Part shown: one piece after another, positions 18,559-43,772 of the stretch
Layout of the letters: the number at the start of each line of letters is the position of its first letter
Numbering within the stretch: position 1 is the stretch's first letter
IMG/VR virus record: IMGVR_UViG_3300049734_000614
Location: 1-43,947 of that record
Length of the DNA stretch: 43,947 nucleotides
Reading direction: 5' to 3' (one strand)
DNA from: a virus
The notes under the pieces: model-generated
Told to the model about the DNA's origin: nothing
The model's input: the letters and a program-made list of their open reading frames with translations, nothing else
The model's database searches: none
Program-made: the position numbers and the translations under genes

Positions 18559-18972
18559 CTATACGTAGTCGTCCGCGTCGCCAATCCGTTCCATCATCGT
18601 GCAGCGCACCGTCACACGTCTGCGCCAGTGAAAGCCGAACTCTCCGGCGGCTGGTCGGTGAATGATGCAGGAATAATCGCCCCAGCGGTCGCTGCCGCCG
18701 TAGCCGCCGAAGTCCACACACCGGATGTAGCCGTTCGCGCTGGGCGCAAGATCGCCGCCCGTAATCGCCCACAACGTCGTCCATTCGGCGTCGCGGATCA
18801 CTTCCCAGATCAACTCGCGACCTTCCCGCGTGTCGATCCACATCGGCTCGCCGTTCAGGTTGAGCGGCCCCGCGTTCGGCGGCAGAAATCGGACCTCCGC
18901 CGGTTGGAGCGCCAGCGGCGCCTGCAGCCCGCTGGGCGTGCTGGCCAGGGCGTACAGATAGCTGACCGGCAT
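18559..18972 (-). CDS. Distal-tail-like protein, 137 aa
   Basis: ATG 18972 overlaps the tape measure stop (TGATG), so this start was chosen over longer upstream readings that lie inside the tape measure gene. The sequence is beta-rich (PVSYLYALASTPSGLQAPLA, MWIDTREGRELIWEVIRD) with RRRVTVRCTMMERI near its end. The gene directly after the tape measure usually encodes the distal tail protein, which makes the tail-tip ring. That is a positional inference, and the protein is short for Dit. Confidence 0.55.
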   Translation of the reverse strand: MPVSYLYALASTPSGLQAPLALQPAEVRFLPPNAGPLNLNGEPMWIDTREGRELIWEVIRDAEWTTLWAITGGDLAPSANGYIRCVDFGGYGGSDRWGDYSCIIHRPAAGEFGFHWRRRVTVRCTMMERIGDADDYV

Positions 18973-21900
18973 CAGCCCGCCGCCGGAACGATGGCGCGAA
19001 GGGCGTCCGTCGCCTGGTCCCAGATCATCGCCGCAAGTCGCTCCGCATCTTCCCCCGACGTGCCGGGCATCACGTTGATCGTCAGTCCGCCTAGCATAAT
19101 CTGATGGTTGGGGATGATGCTGCCGGGCAGGTTCGGGCGGAACAACTCCGGCCCATGCTCGCCCACCCAATACGCGCCGCCGCCGATCACGGGACCGCCC
19201 CATTGCCTGGCGCCGCTGGCGTTCGGCTCGCTTTGATCGTTGATGCCGGAAAACGCCTCGCCGATGGCGCCGGTGACGCCTTTCGCGATGCTCGTGGGCG
19301 ACGGCAGTCCCGCCAGCCGCAACAGCGCCGCGCGCGCCGAATCCGCCGCCGCGCCGAGCAGATCGAAGTTCGCCTTGATGTCCAGCGCGGCTTTCCAGGC
19401 GAGATCGAAGTTGTCTTTCACCTTCTTCAACGCCTTGTCAAAGTCGCCTTTCAGGAACCCTTCGATAATCACAAGGACGTTATGGAACGGCGTCAGCGCG
19501 ATGATCACCAGGTCCGCGAAGGTGGCGATTGCGGTATTGATCCCCACGCCCAGCAGACGGAACACCTCCAGCAGCGTGCCCTGAATGAATTGCGCCCACG
19601 CCTCCAAAATCGGGATGACGTAGGTGTGCATGACCTCGGCAAACTTACGGATCGGCTCCAGCGTCAGGATGGTGAAAGCGTCGCCAAGCAGTTGCATCAG
19701 ACGGCGCCATTCCGGGACCACGTAATTGTCCCATGTGGTCATCATCAGCCCGCCGAGCCTGTTCAAAATCTCGCCGATGATCGACCAGAGCGCGTCATCG
19801 ATCTCGCCAAGCTTCGCCATCATCTCGCCGACGCGCTGGAGGCCGGTGGAAAGCTCCGGGAACTGCACCGCGAAATCCTGCTCGCCGGGGCGCCCGCCAG
19901 GGCCAAGGAACCGCTGCGCGCCCGCCTCCAAATCACCACCCAATCCGAGTCCTTGCCGGATCGTTTCAATGGACTTGGCGATGCTTTCCAGGCTGGTCGC
20001 GATCTCCTTGAACGGATCTTTCAGCCCCTCATCGATCCTGGCCAGGAAGGTGTTGATCGGCGCGAGCGCCTTATCCCAGCCCTCTTTGATCTTGTCCCAC
20101 ATCTCGCGGAACTTGGCCTCGATCTTTTCCGGCGTCGGCACGTTCAGCTTGAACTTCTCGCCCAGCTTGTCTAGTTCCGCGCCCGCCTTCTTCGCCCCGC
20201 CGCCCGCGCCCCCCGTCGCTTTCGTGAACTCGTCCATCAGGCGGATGCTGTCCTGCTGGTACTTGTTCATGTTCTTGAAGGCGTCGATCTGCGGCTGCAA
20301 GGCGTCCCGCACGCCCTCGGCGGCTTCAAGCTCGGCTTGTTTGGCGTCCGTCGCTTCCCGCTGCCGCCCCTTCACGTCGCGGATCTGCTTCCGTAGCTCG
20401 ATCTCACGCGCCAGCATCGAAAGCTCTTTTGGATCGGCTTTGCCCTTGGCGACCTGTTCCGCCAAGCGCGCCATCCGCTCCTGATCGGCAAGCTCTTGCT
20501 GGGCGTCGTTGATTTTGTCCATCTCGCTTTGCAGCGGACGAAGCTCGGCGGCGAACTGGCGGTTGATCTGGGTGATCTCCTTCTGGATGCGCGCCACATC
20601 CTCGCCCGCCTGCACCCACTCGATATAGGTTTCGATGATGCCCTGGATCTCGCCCGCCGCCGAGCCGGACGAGTCCGCGATGGCTTGCATCGTGTCCTCG
20701 CTGATCTGACCGAACTCGCGCATGTCGTTCATTGCCTGCATCAGCGCGGCGCGACTGCCGAAGATCATCTCGGCAAGGTCGCCGCCTTCGGCGCGCGCCA
20801 CGAAGCGCAGCCGCTCCTCGATCATCTTGGAGATTTCGTTGAACACCCCGAAGTCGGCGTTCAGCCAGCCCTTCATGTACTCCTGCATGGCCAGGGCGCC
20901 CCACTTGTCGATGTCGGGGAGCAGCTTGGGCGGGCTGCCCGGCTCCAGCCATCCGCTGATCGTGTCCGCGATGGCGTTCAGCACATCCGCGATAAAGCTG
21001 ACGGCGTCGGCCATGCCGTTCGCGAAGCTGATGATCAGGTTCGATCCCCAGGTGAAGGCGTCATCGATCAGCTTCTCAACGACCGGCGCGATTCCGTTGA
21101 GCGCGCCCATGATCTTGTCGCGGATGCCGCCCCAGTTCTGCGCGAAGGCCGTCGCCGCGACCGCCGCCGCAATCGCCAGCGCCGCCAGCGCCGACACCAC
21201 CAGCCCGACTGGACTGATCAGGGCGGTGATCACGACGGTGATCCCGGCCAGCAGCAGCGCGAGCGGGCCGATGGCGGCGATGATCGCGCCAAAGGTGACG
21301 ATCAGCTTCTTCACTTCGGGGTCGAGCCGTCCGAAGGCCGCGCCAATATCCACGATGACCGGGTAGAGACTGTTCAGCAGGTTGGTCAACTGCTCGATGG
21401 ACGGCCCCATTAGCGAGCCGAGGGCGCGTTCGGCGGCGTTTTGCAAGCGGGCGAAGGCGCCGGGGAGCAACTCGCCAATGGCGATGCCGATCTCGCCGTA
21501 CTTCTTCCGCATCGCCTCAAAGAGTTCGGGCAGCGCCTCGGCGGCGGATAAGGCGCCCTTCTTCGCGCGGTCTTGCAATTCCGCGACGGACGTGCCCATC
21601 TGCTCGGCCAACAACTGCCAGGCCGGGAACACTTCTCCAGCCTGTTGGGTCATTTCCTCGGCGGTCAGCTTGCCTTTGGCGATCATCTGGCTAAAGGCCG
21701 TGGTCAGCCGCATCATCGCTTCTTCGGTGCTCATCGTGGCGGATTTCGCGCCCGCCGCCGTGTTGAGCATGATCTCCATCGCGCCAGCGGCTTCATCAGC
21801 GGCGACGCCGACGCCGATCAGCCGTTGCGCCATTGGCAGCAGGTCGGCCTGCTTGACGCCGAACTTGTCGGCAAGATCGATCATCTGCTCGAAGGTTTTG

Positions 21901-22151
21901 TTCGCCGTTTCGGCGCTGCCGGTAATCGACGTCAGCGCCGTTTTGGCGCGTTGCTCGGTGACGACGAAACTGGCGCCGAGCGCCGCCATCGCCACCGTCG
22001 GCACGGTGAACGCCGCCGTCATCCGCGTGCCGAAGCTGGTCAGTTCATCGGCGACCTGATGGGCCTGCTTCTGGATCTTGCTGAGGCCAGCTTCCGCCTC
22101 GGACAGGTTGGCGCCGACGGTGATCATCAGCTTGGCGAGATTGACGACCAC
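18972..22151 (-). CDS. Tape measure protein, 1059 aa
   Basis: Sets tail length and is ejected ahead of DNA. Features: N-terminal amphipathic helices (LSEAEAGLSKIQKQAHQVAD), a TMP-like TITGSAETANKTFEQM/GVKQADLLPMAQRLIG region typical of phage tape measures, and two hydrophobic segments (about 285-345, VTFGAIIAAIGPLALLLAGI then ALAALAIAAAVAATAFAQ). Long charged coiled coils occupy 480-640, and the C-terminus has ARQWGGPVIGGGAYWVGEHG, a motif common at tape measure ends. At roughly 0.15 nm per residue the tail would be about 160 nm (family rule, not measured). It follows the gpG/gpGT chaperone genes, the standard order. Confidence 0.92.
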   Translation of the reverse strand: MVVNLAKLMITVGANLSEAEAGLSKIQKQAHQVADELTSFGTRMTAAFTVPTVAMAALGASFVVTEQRAKTALTSITGSAETANKTFEQMIDLADKFGVKQADLLPMAQRLIGVGVAADEAAGAMEIMLNTAAGAKSATMSTEEAMMRLTTAFSQMIAKGKLTAEEMTQQAGEVFPAWQLLAEQMGTSVAELQDRAKKGALSAAEALPELFEAMRKKYGEIGIAIGELLPGAFARLQNAAERALGSLMGPSIEQLTNLLNSLYPVIVDIGAAFGRLDPEVKKLIVTFGAIIAAIGPLALLLAGITVVITALISPVGLVVSALAALAIAAAVAATAFAQNWGGIRDKIMGALNGIAPVVEKLIDDAFTWGSNLIISFANGMADAVSFIADVLNAIADTISGWLEPGSPPKLLPDIDKWGALAMQEYMKGWLNADFGVFNEISKMIEERLRFVARAEGGDLAEMIFGSRAALMQAMNDMREFGQISEDTMQAIADSSGSAAGEIQGIIETYIEWVQAGEDVARIQKEITQINRQFAAELRPLQSEMDKINDAQQELADQERMARLAEQVAKGKADPKELSMLAREIELRKQIRDVKGRQREATDAKQAELEAAEGVRDALQPQIDAFKNMNKYQQDSIRLMDEFTKATGGAGGGAKKAGAELDKLGEKFKLNVPTPEKIEAKFREMWDKIKEGWDKALAPINTFLARIDEGLKDPFKEIATSLESIAKSIETIRQGLGLGGDLEAGAQRFLGPGGRPGEQDFAVQFPELSTGLQRVGEMMAKLGEIDDALWSIIGEILNRLGGLMMTTWDNYVVPEWRRLMQLLGDAFTILTLEPIRKFAEVMHTYVIPILEAWAQFIQGTLLEVFRLLGVGINTAIATFADLVIIALTPFHNVLVIIEGFLKGDFDKALKKVKDNFDLAWKAALDIKANFDLLGAAADSARAALLRLAGLPSPTSIAKGVTGAIGEAFSGINDQSEPNASGARQWGGPVIGGGAYWVGEHGPELFRPNLPGSIIPNHQIMLGGLTINVMPGTSGEDAERLAAMIWDQATDALRAIVPAAG

Positions 22152-28953: not shown

Positions 28954-30162
28954 TTACGCGGCGAGGTTCAAAATCTTTGTAGCCGTTTGTTTCATCACCT
29001 GATAGCCCTCCACTTCCGTGAAGAAGATGGCCTCGGTTTGTCGCCGGATGTACCGTTCGGTTTCTTCGATGTCCGCGCCGATCTCGAACACCCGCTCGAC
29101 GGCGGCGCGGCGGTCGAAGCCGATGATCTTGTCGGAAGGCGCGTCGTCGGTGATGCCGTAGCGGATGCCGTCCGAAAGTCGATCTTCGATCGGCGTCAGC
29201 GGCTCCACGATTCCCGGCGGCAGCACCGTCACGGCCTGGTTCTGACTGCCCGTGTTCAGCACCAATCGCTTCGCCATCGGGCCTGACTCGGCCAGAATGG
29301 TGGTCATCTGGTACGGGTTGCGCCAGAGCAGCTTGAAGGCGATCCAGGCGTTCAGCGTCAGGTTTTGCGCGGTGGTCGCGCTGTCCAGCGCGGTCAGGTT
29401 GTAGCTTGTGGCGGCGGTTCCGGCGTTGCCGTCGCCGTTCACCATCACGTCCAGCACCGTGGCGACCTTATCCACTTCGTTCTGCACGGAAACAAGCTCG
29501 ACTATGGTGGCCACGCGATCCAGGCTTTCGCGCCGCATCACTTCGTAGGTGAACTCGACGCCGCGACCGTACTTGTAGAGATTGATCGCGCGTTGGCCGA
29601 CCATCACCTGGATCACCGGGATGTTCGCCGCTTCGGCGACGCGGCTCATGCGCTTCGCCGCCGCCGCTGGCTCCGTCAGATAGGTGCTGCGGAACACGTT
29701 GCCCTGAATGCCGCGACTGTTCGCGATCACTTCGGACAAGGGGATTGCGGGACGGAACCCATCCTGGCGCAGCACGCTGTCGTCCGCGTAGGGACGCAGC
29801 GACGATCCAACCACCGAATCCAGGCTGGTCATCGCGCGCGTGCGCGGCGACTCCTTCGCGCGCCGCGCCACACGGAAGCACCATTCCGGGAACAAGGCGC
29901 GGACCTGATCGTTCTGGTTGAACGCCTCGAACGTGTCCGCATAGATGCCAAGCTCCGGGATCGATCGTGAAACGATGCCGGACTCTTTCATCAACCGTCC
30001 AAAGGCGTCAAGCTCGCCACGATCGCCGCCTTCGGTCGGGTTCAGCACGTCAAGCCACTGACTGAGGCTGCGATTGTGCGTTTTCGCGTCCCGGTACATC
30101 TGCGGTCCTACATTCTCGTAGAGTTCGCGGATGCCCACCGTGGTCACCTGGAGTTGTGGCAT
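28954..30162 (-). CDS. Major capsid protein, 402 aa
   Basis: HK97-fold-like major head protein. ATG 30162 was chosen for its AAAGGGAGAAGGAACG site. It lies downstream of the protease and decoration genes and upstream of connectors, the standard order, and is isolated by a terminator. N-terminal helices (TVGIRELYENVGPQMYRDAK, RSLSQWLDVLNP) could be a delta-type scaffold region. Later stretches YGRGVEFTYEVMRRESLDRV, ALDSATTAQNLTLNAWIAFK and EIGADIEETERYIRRQTEAI fit the spine helix and A-domain of phage capsids. There is no separate scaffold gene; the protease C-terminus may serve that role. Confidence 0.85.
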   Translation of the reverse strand: MPQLQVTTVGIRELYENVGPQMYRDAKTHNRSLSQWLDVLNPTEGGDRGELDAFGRLMKESGIVSRSIPELGIYADTFEAFNQNDQVRALFPEWCFRVARRAKESPRTRAMTSLDSVVGSSLRPYADDSVLRQDGFRPAIPLSEVIANSRGIQGNVFRSTYLTEPAAAAKRMSRVAEAANIPVIQVMVGQRAINLYKYGRGVEFTYEVMRRESLDRVATIVELVSVQNEVDKVATVLDVMVNGDGNAGTAATSYNLTALDSATTAQNLTLNAWIAFKLLWRNPYQMTTILAESGPMAKRLVLNTGSQNQAVTVLPPGIVEPLTPIEDRLSDGIRYGITDDAPSDKIIGFDRRAAVERVFEIGADIEETERYIRRQTEAIFFTEVEGYQVMKQTATKILNLAA

Positions 30163-30181
30163 CGTTCCTTCTCCCTTTCGC

Positions 30182-30607
30182 CTACAGCAGCACCCAGACG
30201 TTTGCCGTATCCGTGGCGTCGATGATTCGACCACGCGCGACCGCAAGCTCTGCGGCGGTGGCGCTCGCCACGCCACGGATATAGCCCGGCGCGGCGGTGT
30301 CCAGATCGCCCACGATCCCCAGGCCCAGCGTCAGCAACGCGCCCGTGCCCGCTGGCAGTTGGACGTAGCCGTGCGTCTGCACCGTGGCCTTGCCATCCGC
30401 CTCCACAAGCAGCAGCTTGCCTTGCACGTCGCTGCCATCGGTGGTCAGGCCGACAGTTTTCGCGGCGGTCAGCTTGACGGCTTTGCCCACCGCCGCGCTG
30501 CCCCCCGTCGCCGTGGCGCTGTAGACGATGCTCGTGCCGTCGATTGTGAAGGTTTCTGCCTCGTACTGGATGCCCGAATAGTCGAGCGTTGCGCGTGGAT
30601 CGGTCAT
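30182..30607 (-). CDS. Head decoration / capsid stabilising protein, 141 aa
   Basis: Small beta-rich protein between protease and capsid genes. Pattern TIDGTSIVYSATATGGSAAV, GKAVKLTAAKTVGLTTDGSD, VQGKLLLVEADGKATVQTHG, YVQLPAG matches capsid cement proteins (DUF2190/gpD-like) that bind the outer face of the expanded head. Directly upstream of the capsid gene and likely made with it. Confidence 0.75.
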   Translation of the reverse strand: MTDPRATLDYSGIQYEAETFTIDGTSIVYSATATGGSAAVGKAVKLTAAKTVGLTTDGSDVQGKLLLVEADGKATVQTHGYVQLPAGTGALLTLGLGIVGDLDTAAPGYIRGVASATAAELAVARGRIIDATDTANVWVLL

Positions 30608-34368: not shown

Positions 34369-36084
34369 TTACGTGAGCAGCTTGCGCGAAACGCCGCCCA
34401 GGATCAGGACTTCATGCGCGCGCTTCGGCAGCGACTCCATAGCCACGCGGTCGTACACCATCGCGTGGAACAAATGGTCCGGGCGACTATGGACCCAATG
34501 CGGCGTTTCCTGGCCATGCTCGTCCGCGGTCACAACGCGCGTCGGCGCGGTGAAGTGCGCGATCACTTCCGGGTCGTTCGCGATCTGCTCCGGCCAGACT
34601 TCGCGCTGCTGCGCGAATGTGCTGTACACCGAGTCCATCGCCATCGTCCGATTGATCTGGATGATCCGCTCCAGCGCCTTCACGCGGAACAGCATGCCGG
34701 GCAGCGCAAGCGGCGTCGGGTAGAACGCGCGCAGCACGCGACCGGGATGCAGATTCGCCCAGCCTTCGGCGGCGTGCAACTCCGGCAGCGCGTCGATCAC
34801 GCAGCTTCGCACGCTGTACAAGCGCAGCAGATTCGTCAGTTCTTCCCAGGTGGCGACGCTTCCCATGAACAGCACGACGCGCTTGCCGAGAATATCCGCG
34901 CTGACGCGCACGTGAAAGCGCGCGCCGACGTCCACGCCCATCGTGATCCGCGACCGCTCCCCTTCGGGGACGGGCATGCTGGCCATTTGTCGCACCATCG
35001 CCTCGGTGATCTGCGCGCCTTCCGGCGTGTACGGCACGCCGAGGTCGGATCGATAGAACTCCAACTGTTCGGCGGGCGTGTCCGCGACGGCGTTCACGGC
35101 CAGGCGCTGCAAGCTGGCGAACGGAAAGGCGAGCGGCGGGATCGCGTAGCCGTGAATGCGACTCGCCTCCGGCTCCTGCGCTTCCCAGGTCCCGACCGCC
35201 AGGCGCGCCTGATCGGGCAAATCCGCTTTGCACGCGGGACAGCGCAAGCTGGCCGTTCCCCTGGCCACGGCGTTGCGCGTCCAGCGCTGGTAGACGTCGA
35301 ACGGCTCGCCATCCACGACCACATCCCGATGAAACTCGTAGACGTTTTCGACGGAACACTTCGGACACGGCTGCGCGTACACGCGCTGATCGCTTTCCAG
35401 ATAGACGGCGTGAATGCCTTTGCCGGGGATCGTCGGCGTGGAAAGGTCAAGCTCCCTTCCTATAACGCTGGCGTTCAACCGTCGCCTGGCGAGAGCGATG
35501 GTGCGCGGGTCCATCCTGTCGAACTCATCCAGGATCAGCACGTCCGCCGGGAAGGAAAGCAACTGCGCTTCGCTCCAGCCGCCGCGCAGGTACAGATAGC
35601 TGTCCCCGATCTGTTTGAAGGTGACGCCGTTGAACTCAACCGCGTCCACGAACAAGCTGCCTAAATAGGCGCTCTCTTTGCGCAAGCCGGAAAAGCGCTC
35701 CTTGGAAAAGTCGCGCAACGCCTCCGCCGTTGGGAACACGTAGGCGACGTTCAGACCGGGCTTTTCGGCCCACAGCTTCGCGCCGACGTCCAGCGCGAAG
35801 GCGGCGTAGGTGATGGCCCACTCCGATATGCCGCGTTGCGCGGGCTTGATCACGCAGATGTGCTGCCAGTCGTCCTCGTAGAGGTCTTTCAGCGGCGTGA
35901 AGCGATCGAGACTAAAGGCGCGTCCGTCGATGCTGCGATGTTTTTGCGCCCAGGCCAGCGGCGTCTGCGGCGGCGCTCCAACGTCCACGTCGCCGCCAGC
36001 GCCGAGGATTTCGCTGCTAGTGACGATCCAGGAGTCGAGCAATGTCCGCGCTGATTTTGGTAAGCGTTCGTTGGTCGGAGACAT
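34369..36084 (-). CDS. Terminase large subunit, GpA-like, 571 aa
   Basis: DNA packaging ATPase/nuclease of the lambda gpA (cos-type) family. A variant Walker A KPAQRGIS (80-87), an FPTAEALRDFSKERFSGL motif and Walker B VLILDEFDRMD (Asp186, Glu187) lie in the ATPase. A zinc-like CPKC...CPAC pair precedes the nuclease domain, with TMGVDVGARFHVRVS holding a likely metal-binding Asp. The start overlaps the small subunit gene by 68 bases and follows GAAGGCGC. Family membership suggests cohesive-end packaging, but no cos site was identified. Confidence 0.92.
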   Translation of the reverse strand: MSPTNERLPKSARTLLDSWIVTSSEILGAGGDVDVGAPPQTPLAWAQKHRSIDGRAFSLDRFTPLKDLYEDDWQHICVIKPAQRGISEWAITYAAFALDVGAKLWAEKPGLNVAYVFPTAEALRDFSKERFSGLRKESAYLGSLFVDAVEFNGVTFKQIGDSYLYLRGGWSEAQLLSFPADVLILDEFDRMDPRTIALARRRLNASVIGRELDLSTPTIPGKGIHAVYLESDQRVYAQPCPKCSVENVYEFHRDVVVDGEPFDVYQRWTRNAVARGTASLRCPACKADLPDQARLAVGTWEAQEPEASRIHGYAIPPLAFPFASLQRLAVNAVADTPAEQLEFYRSDLGVPYTPEGAQITEAMVRQMASMPVPEGERSRITMGVDVGARFHVRVSADILGKRVVLFMGSVATWEELTNLLRLYSVRSCVIDALPELHAAEGWANLHPGRVLRAFYPTPLALPGMLFRVKALERIIQINRTMAMDSVYSTFAQQREVWPEQIANDPEVIAHFTAPTRVVTADEHGQETPHWVHSRPDHLFHAMVYDRVAMESLPKRAHEVLILGGVSRKLLT

Positions 36085-36746: not shown

Positions 36747-37499
36747 CTATTCCTCTGGCGTTTGAGTGGCTAGGCCTTTTAGCTGCCCGATCCACTCGTG
36801 ATTTCGGAGGATTTTCACCAAATAGTCCACGGGCAAACAGCCATCCAGCAGGGACTGTGGACTGCACCAGGCCTCCATTGTGTGCTGGACGTGCGTGTAC
36901 CGCGAGCGTACCCACGACTCCGGCTGATTCGGATTTCCCAGTCCGGTTTTTGTATACCGCTCGGACTTTCGGACTTCGCAGACTGCTTCCGGGACGACGA
37001 CGCACAGCACTTGCACAGCATACCCGAGGCGACCAGCTTCTCGAAAGAATCTGTCGTTCCCTAACCTGTCGCCTTCGCCAAGGATCACGGTGTTGGCGGG
37101 AATCGTGTGCAGCCAGGCGACGGCTATCCCGGCCACGTCCCGTCGCAGCGTATCGGTGCCGCCGTGCGGCCAGCGCGAATCGCCGAGCAGCACGCCGCCC
37201 GCATATTTTCGATGCGCGAAGGGCCAGGTTTCGCTGCTGTAGACGGCGTTCGCGAGCGCGCCTTCCACAAGCGTGGTTTTGCCCGCGCCGCTTGCGCCGA
37301 TCAGGTAGAGCAATTTCCTGCCTGGGATCGCGCGCTGGCGCGCGGGCGCGGAATCGAGCAGACGTTTTCGCAGCGCGGCGTCCCCTTGTTCGCTGTTCGG
37401 GTTCGCCAGGAAGCGCCAGGGCGCGCGTTTCTGCGACGGTGGTTTCGTGAGCGTTGCGCGCGTTGCGCGCGTTGCGCGCGTTGCGCGCGTTGCGTTCAC
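36747..37499 (-). CDS. P-loop kinase, candidate 5-hydroxymethylpyrimidine DNA kinase, 250 aa
   Basis: GTG 37499 overlaps the dioxygenase stop (GTGA), so this start replaces a longer reading inside the neighbour. After a low-complexity (ATR) repeat the kinase begins: Walker A GASGAGKTT (68-76), DSRWPHGGTDTLRRD (GGTD 113-116), ILGEGDRLGNDRFF (EGDR 142-145), and an Arg/Lys-rich lid region (RKSERYTKTGLGNPNQPESW). The GGTD and EGDRL signatures resemble phage P-loop kinases that phosphorylate hydroxymethylated pyrimidines in DNA during hypermodification. An adenylate- or other nucleotide-kinase-like role is the alternative. Coupling to a TET/JBP-like dioxygenase supports the DNA kinase reading. Confidence 0.75.
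   Translation of the reverse strand: MNATRATRATRATRATLTKPPSQKRAPWRFLANPNSEQGDAALRKRLLDSAPARQRAIPGRKLLYLIGASGAGKTTLVEGALANAVYSSETWPFAHRKYAGGVLLGDSRWPHGGTDTLRRDVAGIAVAWLHTIPANTVILGEGDRLGNDRFFREAGRLGYAVQVLCVVVPEAVCEVRKSERYTKTGLGNPNQPESWVRSRYTHVQHTMEAWCSPQSLLDGCLPVDYLVKILRNHEWIGQLKGLATQTPEE
37453..37494 (-). repeat. Tandem 9-base repeat at the kinase gene start
   Basis: Four exact copies of gttgcgcgc on the plus strand plus a partial fifth. They encode (Ala-Thr-Arg) repeats right after the kinase start codon. Copy-number slippage here would add or remove three residues without a frameshift. Confidence 0.85.
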
Positions 37500-38674
37500 G
37501 ATTCGTCCAACGTGGTGAGCGGCGCTTCCACGGTCCAGCGAAGCTGTCGGTTGATCATCACGCGATCGGCGCGGATCTGTTCTTCCTCGGCGCTGCCGCA
37601 GGCGATCATCTTGGCGCGATAGTAGAACACGCACGAAACGCGCTCGTAATGCGCGCCAAGGATCGCGGTGTTGCCGTGCCATTCGTGAAAGTCGGCGCAC
37701 AACACGCCCGTCGTCCGCAGGTCCACGGCCACGCGATGTTTCGGGAACACCAGGAAGCCGCCGGTGTAGCTCCCGGCTTCCAGAGCGGCGATCACGCCGA
37801 AGCCTTCTTGCAGATCGCCGACGTCCTTATGGATGGCGGTGCGGAAATTCCGGTTCACTGTGACGGTTGTGAAGGCCGTGCCTTCAATATGAAAGTCGGC
37901 GCTGGTTGCGTCGGCTAAGGACCGTTGGACGAAGTAGCGATCGGGGACAATCTGCGCGAACAGCGAATCGACCGTGCGCACGAAGGGGAGCGCCTTTGCG
38001 TACTGCGGGTATTTATCCATTGTGTAGGCCGTCATCCGGCAATAGGGAAACCTATCCTGGCGGTCGAAGTAGCCGATGACGCCGGATCGCACGTGGTTGC
38101 TGTAGCTGCTGTGCGAAAGCTCGCCGGTGCTGGCTTTCACGGGACGAAAGCGCACGCGACTTTTCGTGCCGATGGTGCGCGAGTCGCCGCGATCTTTTGG
38201 TGGACGAACCAAGCCGCCCGCCGCGCCGCGATTGCTTGTGACTGTTGCGGCGTTGCGCAGACTTTGATAGGCGGTTTTGCACAACTGTGGACTGATCGCG
38301 CCTGGCAGATAGCGCAGCAGCAGGTCGCCGTTCGCCTTGTAGATTTCCGTCGGTTCCTGGCGCACCACGAAGTCGTAATGACTCTCGTCCACGTAGTTGG
38401 CGGCTAACGCGTCCACCGCGTCGTCTGGTTGCGCGTGCGATAGATGGATTGTGTTCCACTGCACGTCGGGCACGACGGCGACCTTGGGAATGCGCTGCGC
38501 GAAGGTTTGCGCCTGGGCCAACGCGACGTCTTTCTGTTTGTTTGCCGCATCCGCCGCCGTGGGCGTTTCGTCGCGCCGTTTCAGCGTGTGCAGGAAATGC
38601 ACGTCCTTCAGCCTGGGGTCGCCGACGCGCACGCTGTTGCGCACGTAGCCTGGCGGACTTCCCGGCGTCGTCAC
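37496..38674 (-). CDS. TET/JBP-like 2-oxoglutarate/Fe(II) DNA dioxygenase, 392 aa
   Basis: The start GTG 38674 overlaps the ParB-like stop (GTGA) and was preferred over an upstream start inside that gene. Residues about 200-360 carry a double-stranded beta-helix dioxygenase pattern: TVTVNRNFRTAIHKDVGDLQ with the HxD iron motif His282/Asp284, GSYTGGFLVFPKHRVAVDLR, and TTGVLCADFHEWHGNTAI with distal His330 or His333. ERVSCVFYYR follows, with Arg345 as the likely 2-oxoglutarate ligand. This layout matches phage TET/JBP proteins, which hydroxylate 5-methylcytosine or thymine in DNA. The N-terminal 190 residues are unassigned. No methyltransferase lies in the window, so the substrate base is undetermined. 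Confidence 0.8.
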   Translation of the reverse strand: MTTPGSPPGYVRNSVRVGDPRLKDVHFLHTLKRRDETPTAADAANKQKDVALAQAQTFAQRIPKVAVVPDVQWNTIHLSHAQPDDAVDALAANYVDESHYDFVVRQEPTEIYKANGDLLLRYLPGAISPQLCKTAYQSLRNAATVTSNRGAAGGLVRPPKDRGDSRTIGTKSRVRFRPVKASTGELSHSSYSNHVRSGVIGYFDRQDRFPYCRMTAYTMDKYPQYAKALPFVRTVDSLFAQIVPDRYFVQRSLADATSADFHIEGTAFTTVTVNRNFRTAIHKDVGDLQEGFGVIAALEAGSYTGGFLVFPKHRVAVDLRTTGVLCADFHEWHGNTAILGAHYERVSCVFYYRAKMIACGSAEEEQIRADRVMINRQLRWTVEAPLTTLDES

Positions 38675-39351
38675 GCGTCCACGCTTTGCACGGCAAGAGC
38701 CTTGTACGCCCTGGAAACGCACGTCCACACGGTTTCACTGAGTCCATCGACTCCGTACACGCTCGCCAATGCGTCCACCATTTTGAGGAACTCCGGCTGC
38801 GTTTCCACTGTGTAAAATAGTTGCACCATCCGAATCTGCGAAACCACCAGTCCGGCCTTTTCTTCGGTGTTTGGCGCGTCCAGATCGGAATAGTCCTCAT
38901 CATCCAGTTCCAGGCCGCCCACGCTTGTAAAAGTCGGCGGCGGCAGCTTTGCGGCGTATTTCTGCAAGAACGCGGAAACCGCCTCGGTTCTGGGCTGCGT
39001 TTTCGCAAGCAGGGCCGCGTACAGCTTCGGGTCCAGCTTGGCCTGGGTGGTCACCTGGTCGTAGCTTGCCAGCACCAGGCGCATTTCCTCGTCGGAAAGA
39101 TCCACAACCAGCGTCGGCACCTGCTGATGCGGCAGCAACTCCGCGCGCAAATGACCATCCACCAGTTCGAGTCCGTCCGGGACTTCTCTGGCGATCACCG
39201 CGCCCACCATGCCCACTTCTTCCAGCAAGCCCGAAAGCGCGTCGATCTGACTGTTCGGATGCAACCGTGGGTTCGCCTCGTTCACGATCAAATCACGACC
39301 GTACACACGACGAAAATCCACGATTCTGTCGGCAATATCCACAAGCGGCAT
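38671..39351 (-). CDS. ParB-N-like protein of the DNA-modification operon, 226 aa
   Basis: The N-terminal 110 residues show a ParB-N fold: YGRDLIVNEANPRLHPNSQI, ALSGLLEEVGMVGAVIAREV, ELVDGHLRAELLPHQQVPTL (the DGHxRAE box), then VVDLSDEEMRLVLASYDQVT. ParB-N proteins of this kind often accompany phage base-modifying enzymes and may guide or nick DNA. The C-terminus is helical. It opens the dioxygenase-kinase-terminase operon. ATG 39351 lacks a Shine-Dalgarno; a promoter whose start would be near the ATG suggests leaderless translation, or it may be coupled to a small ORF ending at 39361. Confidence 0.8.
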   Translation of the reverse strand: MPLVDIADRIVDFRRVYGRDLIVNEANPRLHPNSQIDALSGLLEEVGMVGAVIAREVPDGLELVDGHLRAELLPHQQVPTLVVDLSDEEMRLVLASYDQVTTQAKLDPKLYAALLAKTQPRTEAVSAFLQKYAAKLPPPTFTSVGGLELDDEDYSDLDAPNTEEKAGLVVSQIRMVQLFYTVETQPEFLKMVDALASVYGVDGLSETVWTCVSRAYKALAVQSVDA

Positions 39352-39357
39352 ACGGGC

Positions 39358-39387
39358 AATCTAGCAAACTCCAGCCCAGGGCGTCAA
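39358..39387 (-). promoter_or_regulatory. Sigma70-like promoter of the modification/packaging operon
   Basis: On the minus strand TTGACG (39387-39382), an 18-base spacer and TAGATT (39363-39358) lie just before ATG 39351. Transcription would start at about the A of the ATG, predicting a leaderless message, which fits the missing ribosome site. Confidence 0.55.
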
Positions 39388-39483
39388 CCAGCGGCGCAGA
39401 CTACGCACGAATAGTCGCCACACCTTCCGATTCAGCGCCCTGGGCCGGGATTTCACGAGGTCAATTGGCGGCGCAATTGTCAC
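39361..39483 (-). CDS. Possible small basic protein, 40 aa
   Basis: GTG 39483 follows AAAGGGAGGAGTG, a strong ribosome site. The product starts MTIAPPIDLVKSRPRALNRK and has an Arg/Trp-rich helical end (VWRLFVRSLRRWLTPW). The stop TAG lies within the proposed -10 of the next gene's promoter, 9 bases before ATG 39351. If real, it could be translationally coupled to the ParB-like gene. Only size and ribosome site support it. Confidence 0.4.
   Translation of the reverse strand: MTIAPPIDLVKSRPRALNRKVWRLFVRSLRRWLTPWAGVC
39374..39445. repeat. 10-bp inverted repeat around the operon promoter
   Basis: GCCCAGGGCG (39374-39383, within the promoter spacer and -35) and CGCCCTGGGC (39436-39445) are exact reverse complements 52 bases apart. 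They could be paired operator half-sites for a repressor that loops the DNA. No regulator has been tied to them. Confidence 0.4.
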
Positions 39484-39816
39484 CACTCCTCCCTTTCACG
39501 AAGAACCACTCTCCGCAGCACACCTTTTCACACCACCAAGGACGAATGAATCCAAAACCCACCCCCGACAGGCGCCCGACCCACAATAGACACAATCCCG
39601 ACAGAAACAGTCACGCGCCGACACACTTCGCAAAGAAACCATGCATGCAACAGCACTATTCCACCTAGAAAACGCTAGCGCCCCCGCCAGTCCTCCGATT
39701 CCACCACGCACGAGGGATTCGAGGAGTGACCGCGCGTCACCGGTCAGCGGTCCGATCGCGGTCGGGGAGGGGTGGAGCGCACAGACGTTCCAGACGTTCT
39801 GCTCCTGGCCGAGCGC
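39484..39816. other. Intergenic stretch without a clear gene
   Basis: The plus strand from 39481 to about 39710 is strongly A/C-rich and G-poor. A minus-strand ORF here is Cys-rich (CFCRDCVYCGSGAC) but has no ribosome site and was not accepted. Nothing else convincing was seen. GAC and GTC are common here, unlike the island that follows. Confidence 0.5.
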
Positions 39817-39942
39817 CTACATCTTGTGCCTGCCTGCATTCGGGCTGGTGGCTTGCTTGGCTGCCTGCTTAGCGCGCTTGCTTGGCTGCTTACGGCTGCC
39901 TGCTTTACGGGCTAGGCGCTTGGCTGCTTTAGCGATGGTCAT
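39817..39942 (-). CDS. Small Lys/Ala-rich histone-H1-like protein, 41 aa
   Basis: ATG 39942 with no strong ribosome site. The product is MTIAKAAKRLARKAGSRKQP followed by SKRAKQAAKQATSPNAGRHK and a final Met. This is a highly basic, Ala/Lys/Arg-rich peptide reminiscent of histone H1 tails, suggesting DNA binding or condensation. It sits at the left edge of the GAC-free island; the only GAC there belongs to its ATGACC start. The larger island gene at 40789 has a similar basic Ala/Pro/Lys tail. Composition makes chance ORFs possible. Confidence 0.45.
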   Translation of the reverse strand: MTIAKAAKRLARKAGSRKQPSKRAKQAAKQATSPNAGRHKM

Positions 39943-40471
39943 AGGGATTGCTAGTGATTGTTGCCAATTGCCGTAACAATCGGATGATAGGATGCCAGGC
40001 GCCGAATCCAGGTGGCATTAGCAGCTGCTGGCGGCGCCTGGGCTTGCGGGCTGGCATTGGTGGCCTGGTGGCTGCTGGCGCCGTGGTTTCCGCTTGGCTG
40101 CTTTTCGGGCTAGGCGTTGTAGGGTATGGCCGTAGGGCTAGCATCGCGTGTAGGGCTGTTCTACGGCGCAACCTGGGGATTAGCTAGGGGAACCTATGGA
40201 ATACGGCAGCAGCATACCCTAATCGCGTGTATGGCGCGCACAACGCGGCTGGCGCGATTCGCCAGCCCGCCACGATAGGGAAATCCCCTAGTATGTTGTA
40301 TATCGTATCGGTAGGGCTGCTGGCGCCCTAGGCGGGCTGGCCTGGGCTGCTGCTGGCGCACCGCCATGCATGGCGCCTGGCATGGCCGTAGCCGCGTTGT
40401 ACGGGCTGCTGGCGGGCTGCAATGGGCAGGGTTAGGGGATTGGATTGCTGGCGCGATTCGGGCAAAGAATC
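39943..40471. other. Island stretch without a clear gene
   Basis: No confident gene. A minus-strand reading starting at TTG 40171, with an internal ATG near 40057, runs to 39929 and is basic at its end, but lacks a ribosome site. The sequence is dominated by GGCTGGC/GCCAGCC and CTGGCG words, with a hairpin GGCTGGCG/CGCCAGCC at 40247-40267. GAC and GTC are absent throughout. Confidence 0.5.
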
Positions 40472-40505
40472 AAAACGGCCAGCCCGTGGTTTGGGCTGGC
40501 CGTTT
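40472..40505 (-). terminator. Rho-independent terminator of the island operon
   Basis: Perfect 13-bp stem AAACGGCCAGCCC/GGGCTGGCCGTTT (40473-40485, 40493-40505) with a 7-base loop, followed by T residues on the minus strand. It lies 21 bases past the stop of the 87-residue gene. Confidence 0.85.
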
Positions 40506-40525
40506 GGGTAGCGCGTATTCGGTTG

Positions 40526-40789
40526 TTAGCGGCTGTAGGCGATCCATTCATGCTGGCGGAACCGGATTGGCTGGCACGGCTTGATAGCCGGATTCCGCGC
40601 AGTGAACGCCAGAACCAAACCACGGCGCGGATGCACGAACCATCGCACATCGCGCATATCGGAATAGCGCCGATCCATCGTTCGTTCTAGCGCGATCTGC
40701 GATTCCCATACCGTGGTATCAACATCGCTGGGATGCAGCCGAACCGAAACATCGATCCGGCTGCCAGGCCTGCTGCTGCGCCTGGCCAT
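40526..40789 (-). CDS. Unknown basic protein, 87 aa (island gene 2)
   Basis: ATG 40789 overlaps the upstream gene's stop (TGATG), indicating coupled translation; GTG 40792 is an alternative. The product starts MARRSSRPGSRIDVSVRLHP and contains DTTVWESQIALERTMDRRYS and DVRWFVHPRRGLVLAFTARN, a compact alpha/beta-like domain. Every Asp codon is GAT and every Glu codon GAA, since GAC and GAG are absent from this DNA. A strong terminator follows. Function unknown. Confidence 0.65.
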   Translation of the reverse strand: MARRSSRPGSRIDVSVRLHPSDVDTTVWESQIALERTMDRRYSDMRDVRWFVHPRRGLVLAFTARNPAIKPCQPIRFRQHEWIAYSR

Positions 40790-41511
40790 CACGCCACCAT
40801 CCCGGCAGGCCTGCGCCCTTTTCGGCTGGCAGGCTTGCCAGGCACGATCGGAACCTTGCTGCTGGCGGGCTTGCCACCAGGCGCCGTGGCCGGTTTCGCC
40901 AGCCGATCGCGATCGGCCTGGGCGATCGGATCAACGGCGGGCTGGCGGCGCTTGATTTCATACGCCTGGCCAGCAGCCGTAGCAGCAGCAGCCCTAGCAG
41001 CCTTGCTGGGTTTGGCTGGCGCAGCCTGGGATTGCTTGGCGCCGTTCTTGCTGGGTTTGGCTGGCGGCGCCGCTGGGATCACGGCGCCGATCCGATTGGC
41101 GTACGCGGCCTTTTTCGCCGCGATGTTGGCTTCCACTTGTTCGGCAGTGATCCGATCGGCGCGCGGCATTTCGGCGCCTGGCGGGATCAGGTAGAAGATC
41201 TTTTCCGAACGGCGCCCAGGCTTGTGGTAGTACGCCACTTCGCCCAGGTGATCCATGCCGCGAACCACGCCGTTCGCCAGCTTCCAGCCACCACCACTGC
41301 CTAGCCCAGTGCCACCAGTGCCTATCACAAGATGGTTCTGCCGCCGGGCGATTTCCGCCTGGCATTCGGCAAACGTGCCAGCGCCGAATTGCACGTTGGG
41401 CTGTTCATGGCGCACCGAAAGTTGCACCCAGCGCCAGCCAGGCTGCTTTACGTTCTGCGGCTTCGCGGGCTGCTGCGCCACGAACGTAGGGGTTTGGGAT
41501 CGCTTAGCCAT
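40789..41511 (-). CDS. Unknown protein with basic Ala/Pro/Lys tail, 240 aa (island gene 1)
   Basis: ATG 41511 is preceded by AAGGAG, which holds the only GAG/CTC inside the island. Residues 20-110 form a folded-looking domain (GWRWVQLSVRHEQPNVQFGA, GTFAECQAEIARRQNHLVIG, GVVRGMDHLGEVAYYHKPGR, RSEKIFYLIPPGAEMPRADR). Residues 150-240 are a disordered basic tail (APAKPSKAARAAAATAAGQA, PGKPASRKGRRPAG) like histone H1 or DNA-condensing tails. Codons with GAC, GTC, GAG and CTC are not used. First gene of a two-gene operon with its own terminator. Function unknown; DNA binding is inferred from the tail. Confidence 0.7.
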   Translation of the reverse strand: MAKRSQTPTFVAQQPAKPQNVKQPGWRWVQLSVRHEQPNVQFGAGTFAECQAEIARRQNHLVIGTGGTGLGSGGGWKLANGVVRGMDHLGEVAYYHKPGRRSEKIFYLIPPGAEMPRADRITAEQVEANIAAKKAAYANRIGAVIPAAPPAKPSKNGAKQSQAAPAKPSKAARAAAATAAGQAYEIKRRQPAVDPIAQADRDRLAKPATAPGGKPASSKVPIVPGKPASRKGRRPAGMVA

Positions 41512-41591
41512 TGGCTACTCCTTGGCGCTAGTGAAATTTGGCAGTGGTAATCACTGCTGGTAGCGCCACGGGAACCATACAGCCCGATTCA

Positions 41592-41656
41592 CGCGGGATT
41601 CGGCCTGGGATCGGCTGCTGGCACGGCCAGGCGGCAATGCCAGGCCGAATCCCGCG
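41592..41656. repeat. 17-bp perfect inverted repeat with 31-base spacer
   Basis: CGCGGGATTCGGCCTGG (41592-41608) is the exact reverse complement of the arm at 41640-41656. It would form a very stable stem in single-stranded DNA or in the leader RNA of the island operon. No T-run follows, so it is not a standard terminator. Confidence 0.8.
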
Positions 41657-41752
41657 ATTCGCGATCTAATGAAGCGATAGCGCCGATTCACGTTCAAATC
41701 ACGCGATTCCAGGCGCCGATCCCAGGCGCCAATACCGGCGCCAATCTAGCCT

Positions 41753-41774
41753 AAAAGTACCATCCGAAAAGTAC
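41753..41774. repeat. Direct repeat AAAAGTAC x2
   Basis: AAAAGTAC at 41753-41760 and 41767-41774, 14 bases apart start to start. Possible binding sites for a regulator of the island operon; no further support. Confidence 0.35.
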
Positions 41775-41896
41775 TATGCCCAGGGCTTGCCTGCCTGCTT
41801 CGCGATGCCAGGCGCCACGCGTGGGCGCCCATACCAGGTGGTATGAACGGCTGTTCGGATTTGGGCCGAATTTCGGCCAATTGGCGGATTGGTTTT

Positions 41897-41902
41897 ATTA
41901 TA
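41897..41902 (-). promoter_or_regulatory. TATAAT -10 element in AT-rich patch
   Basis: Perfect TATAAT on the minus strand within TTGTATAATAAAA, next to the near-palindrome CAATGTG/CACTTTG (41904-41920). The -35 is weak. It would give the island operon a leader of nearly 380 bases including the 17-bp inverted repeat. Confidence 0.45.
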
Positions 41903-41960
41903 CAATGTGAAACACTTTGTAGTAGCAGGCAAGCGGCGCTTGGCTGCTTTCCCAAGCCAA

Positions 41961-41981
41961 CTTGCCTGCATAGCAGGCAAG
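41961..41981. repeat. 9-bp-arm hairpin
   Basis: CTTGCCTGC, loop ATA, GCAGGCAAG: a perfect tight stem-loop between the AT-rich patch and the GAAC-N4-GTTC cluster. A part copy, GCAGGCAAGC, lies at about 41926. Confidence 0.6.
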
Positions 41982-42098
41982 CACAATATCTAGTGGCGAA
42001 CACCAGTTCCGAACGGCTGTTCGGATCATCGGTATACAGAATGGGGAATTAGAACGGGTGTTCTGGCGAACGCCTGTTCTGGCGGAAAGGAGCCTCTC

Positions 42099-42272
42099 GT
42101 GAGAGAAAGCCAGCCGGTACGGACAGCCCGTACGGAGCGTCCGCGCGCGCCAAACGACCGCGAACGACTGTCGAAAACGAAAAAATCGAGCCTCGGTCGA
42201 ATCCGACCGAGCCGCGTGAGCCTCCGTCGTTTGACCGACCGAGCGGACCCGACCGCGCCCGACCGAGCGTGA
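42099..42272 (+). CDS. Candidate small basic protein, 57 aa, behind LexA-like boxes
   Basis: GTG 42099 lies 6 bases after GAAAGGAG. Two GAAC-N4-GTTC dyads lie at 42052 and 42068 and a TATACA element near 42033, so a regulated promoter could drive it. The product opens MRESQPVRTARTERPRAPND and is rich in Arg/Ser/Lys (SKTKKSSLGRIRPSRVSLRR). Its TGA overlaps another GTG (GTGA), starting a chain of very short ORFs. The opposite strand is also open here, so the coding strand is not settled. Confidence 0.45.
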   Translation: MRESQPVRTARTERPRAPNDRERLSKTKKSSLGRIRPSRVSLRRLTDRADPTAPDRA

Positions 42273-42609
42273 CCGAGCGACGCCGCGCGGACCCGCCAGC
42301 GTGACCGTCCCCTCGTGCGCAAACGCTGGCCGGTACGGACAGACCGCTTCGACAGGACGGCGCGTCCAGCGTGAGAGGACGAAAATTTTGGACAGTCCGT
42401 CCGCTCCCTCGGCCTGGCGATTCCGCCTGATTCGTCGGTCCAGTGTGACCGTCCCCTCTGCCGCAAAAGCCAGCCGGTACGGACCCATTTTCCAGGATGG
42501 AGGCGCTGTCGCGTGACCTTCCGAAAAAATCGTCGCGCGTGACCGACCGATCGCGCGCGCCAGGGCGTGGGAGCGTCCCGCCCTTAAAAAGCCAGCCGGT
42601 ACGGGCCCA
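42106..42609. repeat. Four copies of a CCGGTACGG-centred repeat
   Basis: Shared block AAAGCCAGCCGGTACGG or close variants at 42106-42122, 42321-42338 (AAACGCTGGCCGGTACGG), 42466-42482 and 42588-42604. Three copies are preceded by (G/A)(C/G)CGTCCC-type sequence a few bases upstream, and copies 1 and 2 continue GGACAG. Core spacings are 216, 144 and 122 bases. The segment is extremely rich in GACC/GGTC words. Confidence 0.8.
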
Positions 42610-42616
42610 TTTCTGA
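42269..42616 (+). other. Chain of tiny GTGA-overlapping ORFs
   Basis: Four further plus-strand ORFs each begin at the GTG of a GTGACC junction that holds the stop of the one before: 42269-42304 (11 aa), 42301-42516 (71 aa), 42513-42542 (9 aa) and 42539-42616 (25 aa). They contain echoes of one another (VPSCANAGRYG, VPSAAKASRYG, LKSQPVRA). A minus-strand frame is open from 42662 to 41898 and also shows repeated peptides (PYRLAF..EGTVTL). Whether any of this is translated is unclear; the DNA repeat itself may be the functional unit. Confidence 0.35.
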
Positions 42617-42658
42617 CGACGACGACGATTTCTGAGATCGCGACGATTTTCCAGGACC

Positions 42659-42802
42659 TCACCCTCGCAAAACGAGACCTCCAAAAAACAGTCCCCCCCT
42701 CTCATTCGGTCGGCGGAAATGCCGAGAAACCAGGACGCGGCGCCCGTTCGGCGCCTCACAAAGAACCTGCGCCGTCGCCAATTGCTCCACTACCGGCTTC
42801 AC
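42659..42802 (-). CDS. Possible small protein, 47 aa
   Basis: GTG 42802 opens a coding-like frame, MKPVVEQLATAQVLCEAPNG then RRVLVSRHFRRPNERGGLFF, ending at TGA 42659-42661. It starts inside the terminator of the upstream gene and has no good ribosome site, so support is weak. Its stop overlaps a GTG that opens the long minus-strand frame across the CCGGTACGG repeats. Confidence 0.35.
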   Translation of the reverse strand: MKPVVEQLATAQVLCEAPNGRRVLVSRHFRRPNERGGLFFGGLVLRG

Positions 42803-42830
42803 CGAAAAGCCCCGTCCCCGAAGGGACGGG
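42802..42830 (-). terminator. Rho-independent terminator after the DUF6573-like gene
   Basis: Perfect 8-bp stem CCCGTCCC/GGGACGGG (42811-42818, 42823-42830) with a stable TTCG tetraloop on the minus strand, followed by GCTTTT. It lies 11 bases past the stop of the gene at 42841. Confidence 0.8.
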
Positions 42831-42840
42831 ACGCGCCAAC

Positions 42841-43191
42841 CTAGTAGTCGGCAGGGTCCAGGATCGTCCAGCCCTCGCCGCGCACATGCATCAGCCAGAG
42901 CGTGTGCAGTCGTCGCTCCGTCCGAAAGCCGAACGGCAGCGGTCCGGACGACGGACGCTTCCGATTCTTCATCAGCACACTGCACAAAAAGAGCAGATCG
43001 TGCAAGCGTCCTTCCAGCGACTCGCCCGTGGAGGAATCGGCGTGCAGAAGCGCGCTCACCCCGGTCGAAACGCAGGTTTGCTCCACGAAGCCGTAGCCGC
43101 GCGCCTGCTCCGAAACATCCTCCAGCACGCCGTCCGCAATCGCCTGGGCGCGCGTGTAGACGGAAATCACTTCCCACTCTCGCTCGTTCAT
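42841..43191 (-). CDS. DUF6573-like phage protein, 116 aa
   Basis: Starts MNEREWEVISVYTRAQAIAD then GVLEDVSEQARGYGFVEQTC, the recognisable opening of the DUF6573-type family found in phages and plasmids (xVIxxYTRAQAIxDGxLxDV). The middle GRLHDLLFLCSVLMKNRKRP and the end LHTLWLMHVRGEGWTILDPA also fit. Function unknown. It overlaps the gene upstream by four bases (ATGA) and follows a GGGAGGCGATC site. A terminator follows directly, so it ends this operon. Confidence 0.75.
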   Translation of the reverse strand: MNEREWEVISVYTRAQAIADGVLEDVSEQARGYGFVEQTCVSTGVSALLHADSSTGESLEGRLHDLLFLCSVLMKNRKRPSSGPLPFGFRTERRLHTLWLMHVRGEGWTILDPADY

Positions 43192-43772
43192 GATCGCCTC
43201 CCAAGAAATTCGGCGCCGCGCGCGCCTTTGGCGTCGCGCCCGAACAGACGTTCTTCTTCGACAGATCCCGCCGCGACCGCCACGCCGCCGCTCTGATAGC
43301 GACCCAACTGCCAGTCCTTGTGCTGCGGGTCCACGATCACGCGATGGAAGATTTGCTCCGTGCGGGTGAACGGCAAAACGCGACGGTTCGGGTCGCTGGC
43401 GCGAACGCCGCGAGCAGGATCGGCGTCGCCGGGACGGATGGTTCCGAACCCGTCATAGGCGGGCGGGCACGTCGTCCACAGAGTCATCTCCTGCGGCCAG
43501 AAGGACGGCATTTCGGATTCGCAGCGATAGGCGTAGTCCCGCGCTTCGTCGTTCTCATAGACGACCTGCACTTCATAGTAGGTTCCGAAGTCGTGCGGAT
43601 TGCCCTTCACCTTGAAGCGCGCGCCCTCCGGCTCTGGACCGATCGTGATCCGCAAGGCGTCGATGAAGCGGCGGCATTCATCGCGCGCTTTCTCGGCGTC
43701 ATAGCTGGGCATGCCCACCTGCTGACACGGTTCTTCCACCGGAACGCAGGTCAATTCCATGTAGTCGCTCAT
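43188..43772 (-). CDS. Unknown phage protein, 194 aa
   Basis: Unrecognised. ATG 43772 overlaps the previous stop (ATGA) and has an AAAAAAGGAGCAACCAACG site. It begins MSDYMELTCVPVEEPCQQVG, then a helix (YDAEKARDECRRFIDALRIT), a strand-rich core (ARFKVKGNPHDFGTYYEVQV, NDEARDYAYRCESEMPSFWP) and an Arg-rich C-terminus. The central part resembles small DNA-metabolism accessory proteins only in general style. Partner of the DUF6573-like gene. Confidence 0.65.
   Translation of the reverse strand: MSDYMELTCVPVEEPCQQVGMPSYDAEKARDECRRFIDALRITIGPEPEGARFKVKGNPHDFGTYYEVQVVYENDEARDYAYRCESEMPSFWPQEMTLWTTCPPAYDGFGTIRPGDADPARGVRASDPNRRVLPFTRTEQIFHRVIVDPQHKDWQLGRYQSGGVAVAAGSVEEERLFGRDAKGARGAEFLGRRS

Follow-up and report, generated by a model that had tools for sequence, protein, structure and literature searches.

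A 2.2-kb island purged of GAC, GTC, GAG and CTC in an uncultivated siphophage contig: a putative terminal repeat that may exclude primase start sites

The window analyzed here is the whole 43,947 bp (positions 1-43,947) of IMG/VR record IMGVR_UViG_3300049734_000614, a contig from an uncultivated virus that, with its terminase, capsid and tape measure genes, contains approximately half of a siphophage genome (Table 1). Upstream of the gene for the large terminase subunit, and beyond a pair of genes encoding a TET/JBP 2-oxoglutarate oxygenase and a ParB-domain protein, lies an island of roughly 2.2 kb from which the trinucleotides GAC and GTC are absent on both strands and GAG and CTC nearly so. 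The island harbors an operon of two small genes and is followed on its right by a segment in which some of the same words are enriched on one strand. A C-rich non-coding stretch of 460 bp (39352-39811) separates the island from the ParB gene. Neither known RNAs nor tRNAs were found in the window.

An earlier note, made from the letters of the window, had described positions 39941-42121 as devoid of GAC and GTC on either strand. A scripted count confirmed this observation, returning zero for both words in this segment, compared to 635 GAC and 889 GTC in the whole window. The gap free of both words (39938-42122) spans 2184 bp, for which the mean density of the window predicts approximately 76 occurrences, and the corresponding gap statistic yields a log10 p of -29.7 (p about 1e-30). 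The next-longest GAC/GTC-free gap anywhere in the 43,947 bp is 171 bp long, so the depletion is local and does not reflect a general bias. GAG and CTC, with three occurrences each in 39941-42121, are concentrated at the right edge of the segment (five of the six at 42090-42103), leaving a CTC at 41518 as their sole internal occurrence; the claim that the base after GA is always A or T hence holds throughout the island with this one exception. A maximum-likelihood fit of the four words taken jointly, with a background of 0.056 per bp, delimits an island of 2278 bp with two matches, compared to approximately 127 expected. Furthermore, Markov-1 sequences built from the dinucleotides of the island itself always contained, in 2000 trials, at least 18 GAC/GTC and at least 26 GAG/CTC.

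As the earlier note proposed, the exclusion extends over coding and non-coding DNA, with 35 and 46 GAC/GTC expected, respectively, in the corresponding parts of the island and both purged. In the two coupled island genes, all 11 aspartate codons are GAT, all 12 glutamate codons are GAA and none of the 22 valine codons is GTC. The gene at 40789-41511 contributes five GAT and nine GAA, with no GAC, GAG or GTC, and the gene at 40526-40789 six GAT and three GAA, with no GAC or GAG. Outside the island, GAC (267 vs 169) and GAG (216 vs 196) are the preferred codons. The purge is thus independent of coding, and aspartate, glutamate and valine codons have been altered to comply with it. The GC content of the island (0.61) is close to that of the rest of the window and GATC occurs at a normal frequency (21 vs 22.5 expected), while CAG/CTG and GGCGCC are enriched, TAG is high, CTAG is in excess and distinct 6-mers are slightly fewer (1184 vs 1235-1472 in the background). 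Several longer motifs (TCGA, CTGA and AGGA) are also low in the island, but they were discarded as avoided words because their scarcity is partly a consequence of the GA(G/C) rule; CTGA alone stays marginal (1 vs 9). For the 240-aa protein encoded in the island we found no Pfam, PHROG or phage relative, and a single-sequence structure model of this protein was unusable (predicted local distance difference test score of 43).

This local exclusion of a class of trinucleotides is very strong and unmatched as far as tested. In a survey of other viral loci totaling 3.35 Mb, the longest gap free of any 3- or 4-mer has an expected count of 25, compared to 76 here, and the one gap with an expected count of 40 in genomes fetched later is a simple repeat-coding stretch. 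Other word-free gaps were rejected as counterparts of the island: one (G012, 89.9-92.4 kb) consists of repetitive coding sequence, another (G005, 25.9-27.4 kb) is an AT-rich insertion, and 863 bp without GAC/GTC in a third locus (L168:16-879) lie in a repeat coding stretch rich in alanine, lysine and glutamate. The last of these gaps lies where its contig ends, 3 kb upstream of the gene for a related terminase. To our knowledge, the removal of a trinucleotide from both strands of a 2-kb DNA region, in coding and non-coding sequence alike, has not been described before, and our searches brought up no such case.

The segment to the right of the island had been described as rich in the same words, which is the case overall but applies mainly to one strand rather than to both. 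In 42105-42705, GAC occurs 31 times (8.7 expected; p = 3e-9) and GAG 13 times (4.7 expected; p = 0.001), whereas GTC (15 vs 12.1) and CTC (11 vs 8.0) are near their expected counts. GACC, which corresponds to GGTC on the minus-strand template, is found 18 times against 1.9 expected. The resulting difference between plus and minus strands is 18, compared to a mean of -7.5, a standard deviation of 8 and a maximum of 14 in 390 overlapping windows from 1-39600. Several GTGACCG motifs, together with the four 26-nt repeats (42105-42612), surround the motif AAAATTTT at 42382, and this cluster is possibly a terminase or origin site. A search for relatives through the flank repeat AGCCAGCCGGTACGG produced 82 single matches, all attributable to chance, and a candidate hairpin at the right edge of the island was no stronger than in shuffled sequences.

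Table 1. Coordinates of the island and of the genes and sequence elements discussed in the text.
Feature	Position	Strand	Evidence or remark
HNH endonuclease gene	1-492	+	left contig end
Second ParB-domain protein gene	1059-2174	+	left contig end
Tape measure gene	18972-22151		
Capsid gene	28954-30276		
Large terminase subunit gene (GpA ATPase)	34369..36084	-	Pfam PF05876, 9e-21; position reference
TET/JBP 2-oxoglutarate oxygenase gene	37496..38728	-	Pfam PF12851, 2e-21; possible DNA base modification; neighbor of island
ParB-domain protein gene, partner of the oxygenase gene	38671..39351	-	PHROG matches
Exclusion island for GAC/GTC/GAG/CTC	39812..42089	.	edges from maximum-likelihood fit; strictly GAC/GTC-free at 39939-42121; putative terminal repeat present as a single collapsed copy
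Only GTC within the maximum-likelihood island	39938..39940	.	127 bp from left edge
Terminator-like hairpin	40473..40505	-	directly after the two-gene operon
Second small gene	40526..40789	-	87 aa when counted from ATG; start overlaps stop of the 240-aa gene (coupled)
Gene for 240-aa basic protein	40789..41511	-	open reading frame with AAGGAG upstream; C-terminal half Ala/Pro/Lys-rich
Only CTC within the island	41518..41520	.	part of Shine-Dalgarno AAGGAG of gene 40789-41511
Right flank	42105..42705	+	plus strand only enriched in GAC (3.6x) and GAG (2.8x); A-tract rich
26-nt repeat, copy 1 (core GCCAGCCGGTACGGAC)	42105..42130	+	
26-nt repeat, copy 2	42321..42346	+	
AAAATTTT	42382..42389	.	single occurrence in window
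26-nt repeat, copy 3	42465..42490	+	
26-nt repeat, copy 4	42587..42612	+	
Terminator-like hairpin	42809..42832	-	of gene running towards the repeats

Single-sequence scans with the terminase, capsid or TET proteins found no close relatives of this phage, but its terminase and capsid identify the 81-85-kb siphophages Seuss, Lumi, JWF and EAb13 as distant ones (terminase identity to Seuss, Lumi and JWF of 23-27%, with the capsid also matching). The genomes of these four phages end in direct terminal repeats of 1748, 2298, 1466 and 2177 bp, the near edges of which lie 3.8, 3.5, 4.9 and 4.1 kb upstream of the terminase, respectively. With a length of 2.2-2.3 kb and a location 3.7-3.9 kb upstream of the terminase, the island falls within the range of these repeats. 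The relatives also share an arrangement in which a gene running towards the repeat is followed by a terminator, short repeats, an A/T motif and terminal-repeat genes running away, with AAAATTTT or AAATTTTTGA located 8-30 nt outside one, terminase-side, edge of the terminal repeat. In the window, the genes at 42841-43772 are likewise oriented towards the repeats and followed by a terminator, the repeats with AAAATTTT and the island genes, which run away from them. The likeness comprises the place relative to the terminase, the length, the presence of small genes of unknown function and, more loosely given its greater distance and opposite side in the window, an A/T motif with repeats at one edge. 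The relatives differ in that their terminal repeats are only mildly depleted of words and in that a primase gene lies beside the repeat (a Prim-Pol gene between terminase and repeat in Seuss, Lumi and JWF, absent from the window), where the window phage carries its TET and ParB genes.

Because terminal repeats of matching size occupy the matching place in these relatives, we estimate at about two in three the chance that the island constitutes most of the terminal repeat of the phage, probably collapsed to one copy in the assembly. The agreement with the relatives is good though imperfect: given the distance of AAAATTTT from the island edge (260-290 bp), the true repeat may reach to approximately 42.36 kb. 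The earlier suggestion of a packaging or origin signal is thereby supported in a general sense, since the position corresponds to the packaging-end region of the relatives.

The excluded motif is three nucleotides long, is avoided on both strands and in coding and non-coding DNA alike, and overrides codon choice; its length is that of a primase start site. The primase of phage T7 requires 5'-GTC and prefers (G/T)2GTC (PMC12839067). The window shares with the T7 gp4 system the same trinucleotide, with GACC/GGTC favored in its flank, and differs from it in that CTC is also avoided and in that a primase is not seen on the contig. We tentatively favor, with less than even confidence, the interpretation that the island represents most of a direct terminal repeat kept free of the start word of the primase. 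We infer that the excluded word would be the template 5'-(G/C)TC-3', the start site of the phage's own primase. When a replication fork runs off the end of a linear genome, copying of the final lagging-strand template would require a primer to start within it. In a repeat without start sites, lagging-strand synthesis would halt at the inner border, leaving the whole repeat as a 3' single strand. The plus-strand overhang at one end would be complementary to the minus-strand overhang at the other, allowing them to anneal and form concatemers for packaging. Start sites (GAC/GAG on the plus strand, with their templates on the minus strand) would crowd the inner border, so that everything as far as the repeat is copied. 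Since both genome ends would carry the same repeat, the exclusion has to apply to both strands, as observed, and a repeat without start sites predicts GAC/GAG on the plus strand just inside the border for a leftward-moving fork, a prediction that the right flank fits.

Several observations weigh against this interpretation. The contig, which covers about half of the genome, yielded no primase and contains a single copy of the putative repeat, so that its terminal nature is what we infer. The motif AAAATTTT lies on the side of the island away from the terminase, opposite to its side in the relatives, and a mirrored layout must therefore be assumed. Repeated motifs supply about half of the GAC excess in the right flank, where masking them reduces the count from 31 to 19 (8.7 expected), and the left flank presents no matching GTC/CTC enrichment. 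Conservation in homologous phages, which the earlier note had raised, was not observed: no GAC-free island is present in the nearest terminase relatives (L093-L110, 43-55% identical) or in six of their contigs, and the terminal repeats of Seuss, Lumi, JWF and EAb13 show only mild depletion of any word. The short terminal repeat of T7 is itself not free of GTC, and we know of no start-free terminal repeat in that phage. Lastly, a single additional weak site for priming would be expected to carry a small cost, so that total purging would need large populations.

Avoidance of a restriction target, another cause that had been suggested, does not fit in its ordinary form. Palindromes of 6 bp are avoided in this phage (402 vs 863 expected; GGATCC, 0 vs 12.6), revealing word avoidance under selection as in the island, but this avoidance is genome-wide and therefore does not explain a local rule of 3 bp. 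Among individual palindromes in 1-39500, GCCGGC (0 vs 44), CGGCCG (0 vs 29), CCGCGG (1 vs 26) and CCCGGG (0 vs 18) illustrate the extent of this avoidance. A more specific proposal, which we deem unlikely, holds that the first DNA to enter the cell has to be free of targets for a nuclease that recognizes short words (a host defense nuclease or a CRISPR protospacer-adjacent motif), with the terminal repeat entering first and its two genes disarming the host before the remainder follows. The location of the island in the presumed terminal repeat and its operon without known relatives agree with this proposal, and complete purging would be easily selected if one cut per molecule were lethal. The first-injected (first-step-transfer) terminal repeat of phage T5 lacks EcoRI sites and is similar in being a terminal stretch free of a word present elsewhere in the genome, but the word in T5 is the 6-bp site of one enzyme, whereas here all GAC/GTC and nearly all GAG/CTC are missing, with one-strand enrichment alongside. 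This enrichment is not predicted by first entry, the 3-bp words are shorter than restriction sites, the palindrome avoidance of this phage is not local, and the CAG/CTG, GGCGCC and GATC counts in the island also argue against a nuclease target.

The genes adjoining the island suggest a different explanation. The TET/JBP and ParB genes (37496-39351, minus strand) likely form a DNA hypermodification cassette. The HxD/H iron site of the oxygenase is present, with H300, D302, H348 and R363 invariant, and the gene pair is also found in Pelagibacter phage HTVC112P. The phage DNA could then be modified at GA(G/C)/(G/C)TC by the oxygenase and its ParB-like partner, with a terminus that must stay unmodified for binding by terminase, origin factors or host polymerase, or that is made too late for modification in the presence of a phage nuclease that cleaves unmodified sites. 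Among the nine contigs tested (the window and eight terminase relatives), only that of the window carries TET, and it alone has the island. Nonetheless, we give this explanation even less credence than first entry, given that no such island occurs in 80 IMG/VR loci of TET relatives or in the complete TET phages HTVC112P and P12024L, which led us to reject the island as a general feature of TET phages. Furthermore, the avoidance of type II sites throughout the genome suggests that the DNA is not broadly protected, no strand asymmetry is predicted, and no methyltransferase was recognized among the window proteins scanned. The adjacency of one-strand enrichment and an empty zone, together with the HNH endonuclease gene of the window, would instead suit a phage nicking enzyme (the HNH protein or the terminase nuclease) acting at GA(G/C), for which the flank 42105-42705 would be the landing zone and the repeat would have to stay unnicked. 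GA(G/C) is common in all other parts of the genome, however, and we know of no enzyme with this nicking specificity, which renders such a nickase improbable. Finally, long word-free gaps in other viruses are repeats or AT-rich insertions, shorter gaps occur in L168 and in phage KB12-38, and the island has somewhat fewer distinct 6-mers and an excess of TAG/CTAG, as might result from low complexity, foreign origin or mutational bias without any function. It is very unlikely that this accounts for the island, in which GC content is unchanged, many unrelated sequences are present, and four words are purged from coding and non-coding DNA alike, with two of approximately 127 left and one of these survivors forming part of a ribosome-binding site.

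Returning to primase-start exclusion, a wider and more doubtful proposition is that some phages free their whole terminal repeat of the start word of their own primase, thereby programming kilobase-long complementary 3' overhangs at both ends, and that the missing word reveals the specificity of the primase. The formation of concatemers by joining of unprimed complementary 3' ends is a long-standing idea, for which primase-start exclusion, if true, would provide sequence-level support in linear phage genomes; primase specificity would also become readable from genomes. If avoidance of a nuclease or of a modification were the cause instead, the island would indicate an unknown enzyme that recognizes three bases and whose target is of consequence at the genome end alone.

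A milder depletion was observed in several of the distant relatives. CAG/CTG is approximately two-fold depleted in the terminal repeats of Seuss (L087), JWF (L091) and EAb13 (L311), at or below the values of all same-size windows, and also at the presumed end of PMBT3, and the depletion in these four phages persists when only coding DNA is compared; the terminal repeat of Lumi shows no CAG/CTG depletion. Were the wider proposition true, the depletion in Seuss, JWF and EAb13 would amount to a partial version of such exclusion. In phage KB12-38, 879 bp without GCA/TGC (L309:35358-36237; approximately 22 expected) lie in an unannotated gap 3.85 kb upstream of its terminase, the same relative place as the island. 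The CAG/CTG depletion and the KB12-38 gap could represent a milder form of the rule seen in the island or background heterogeneity.

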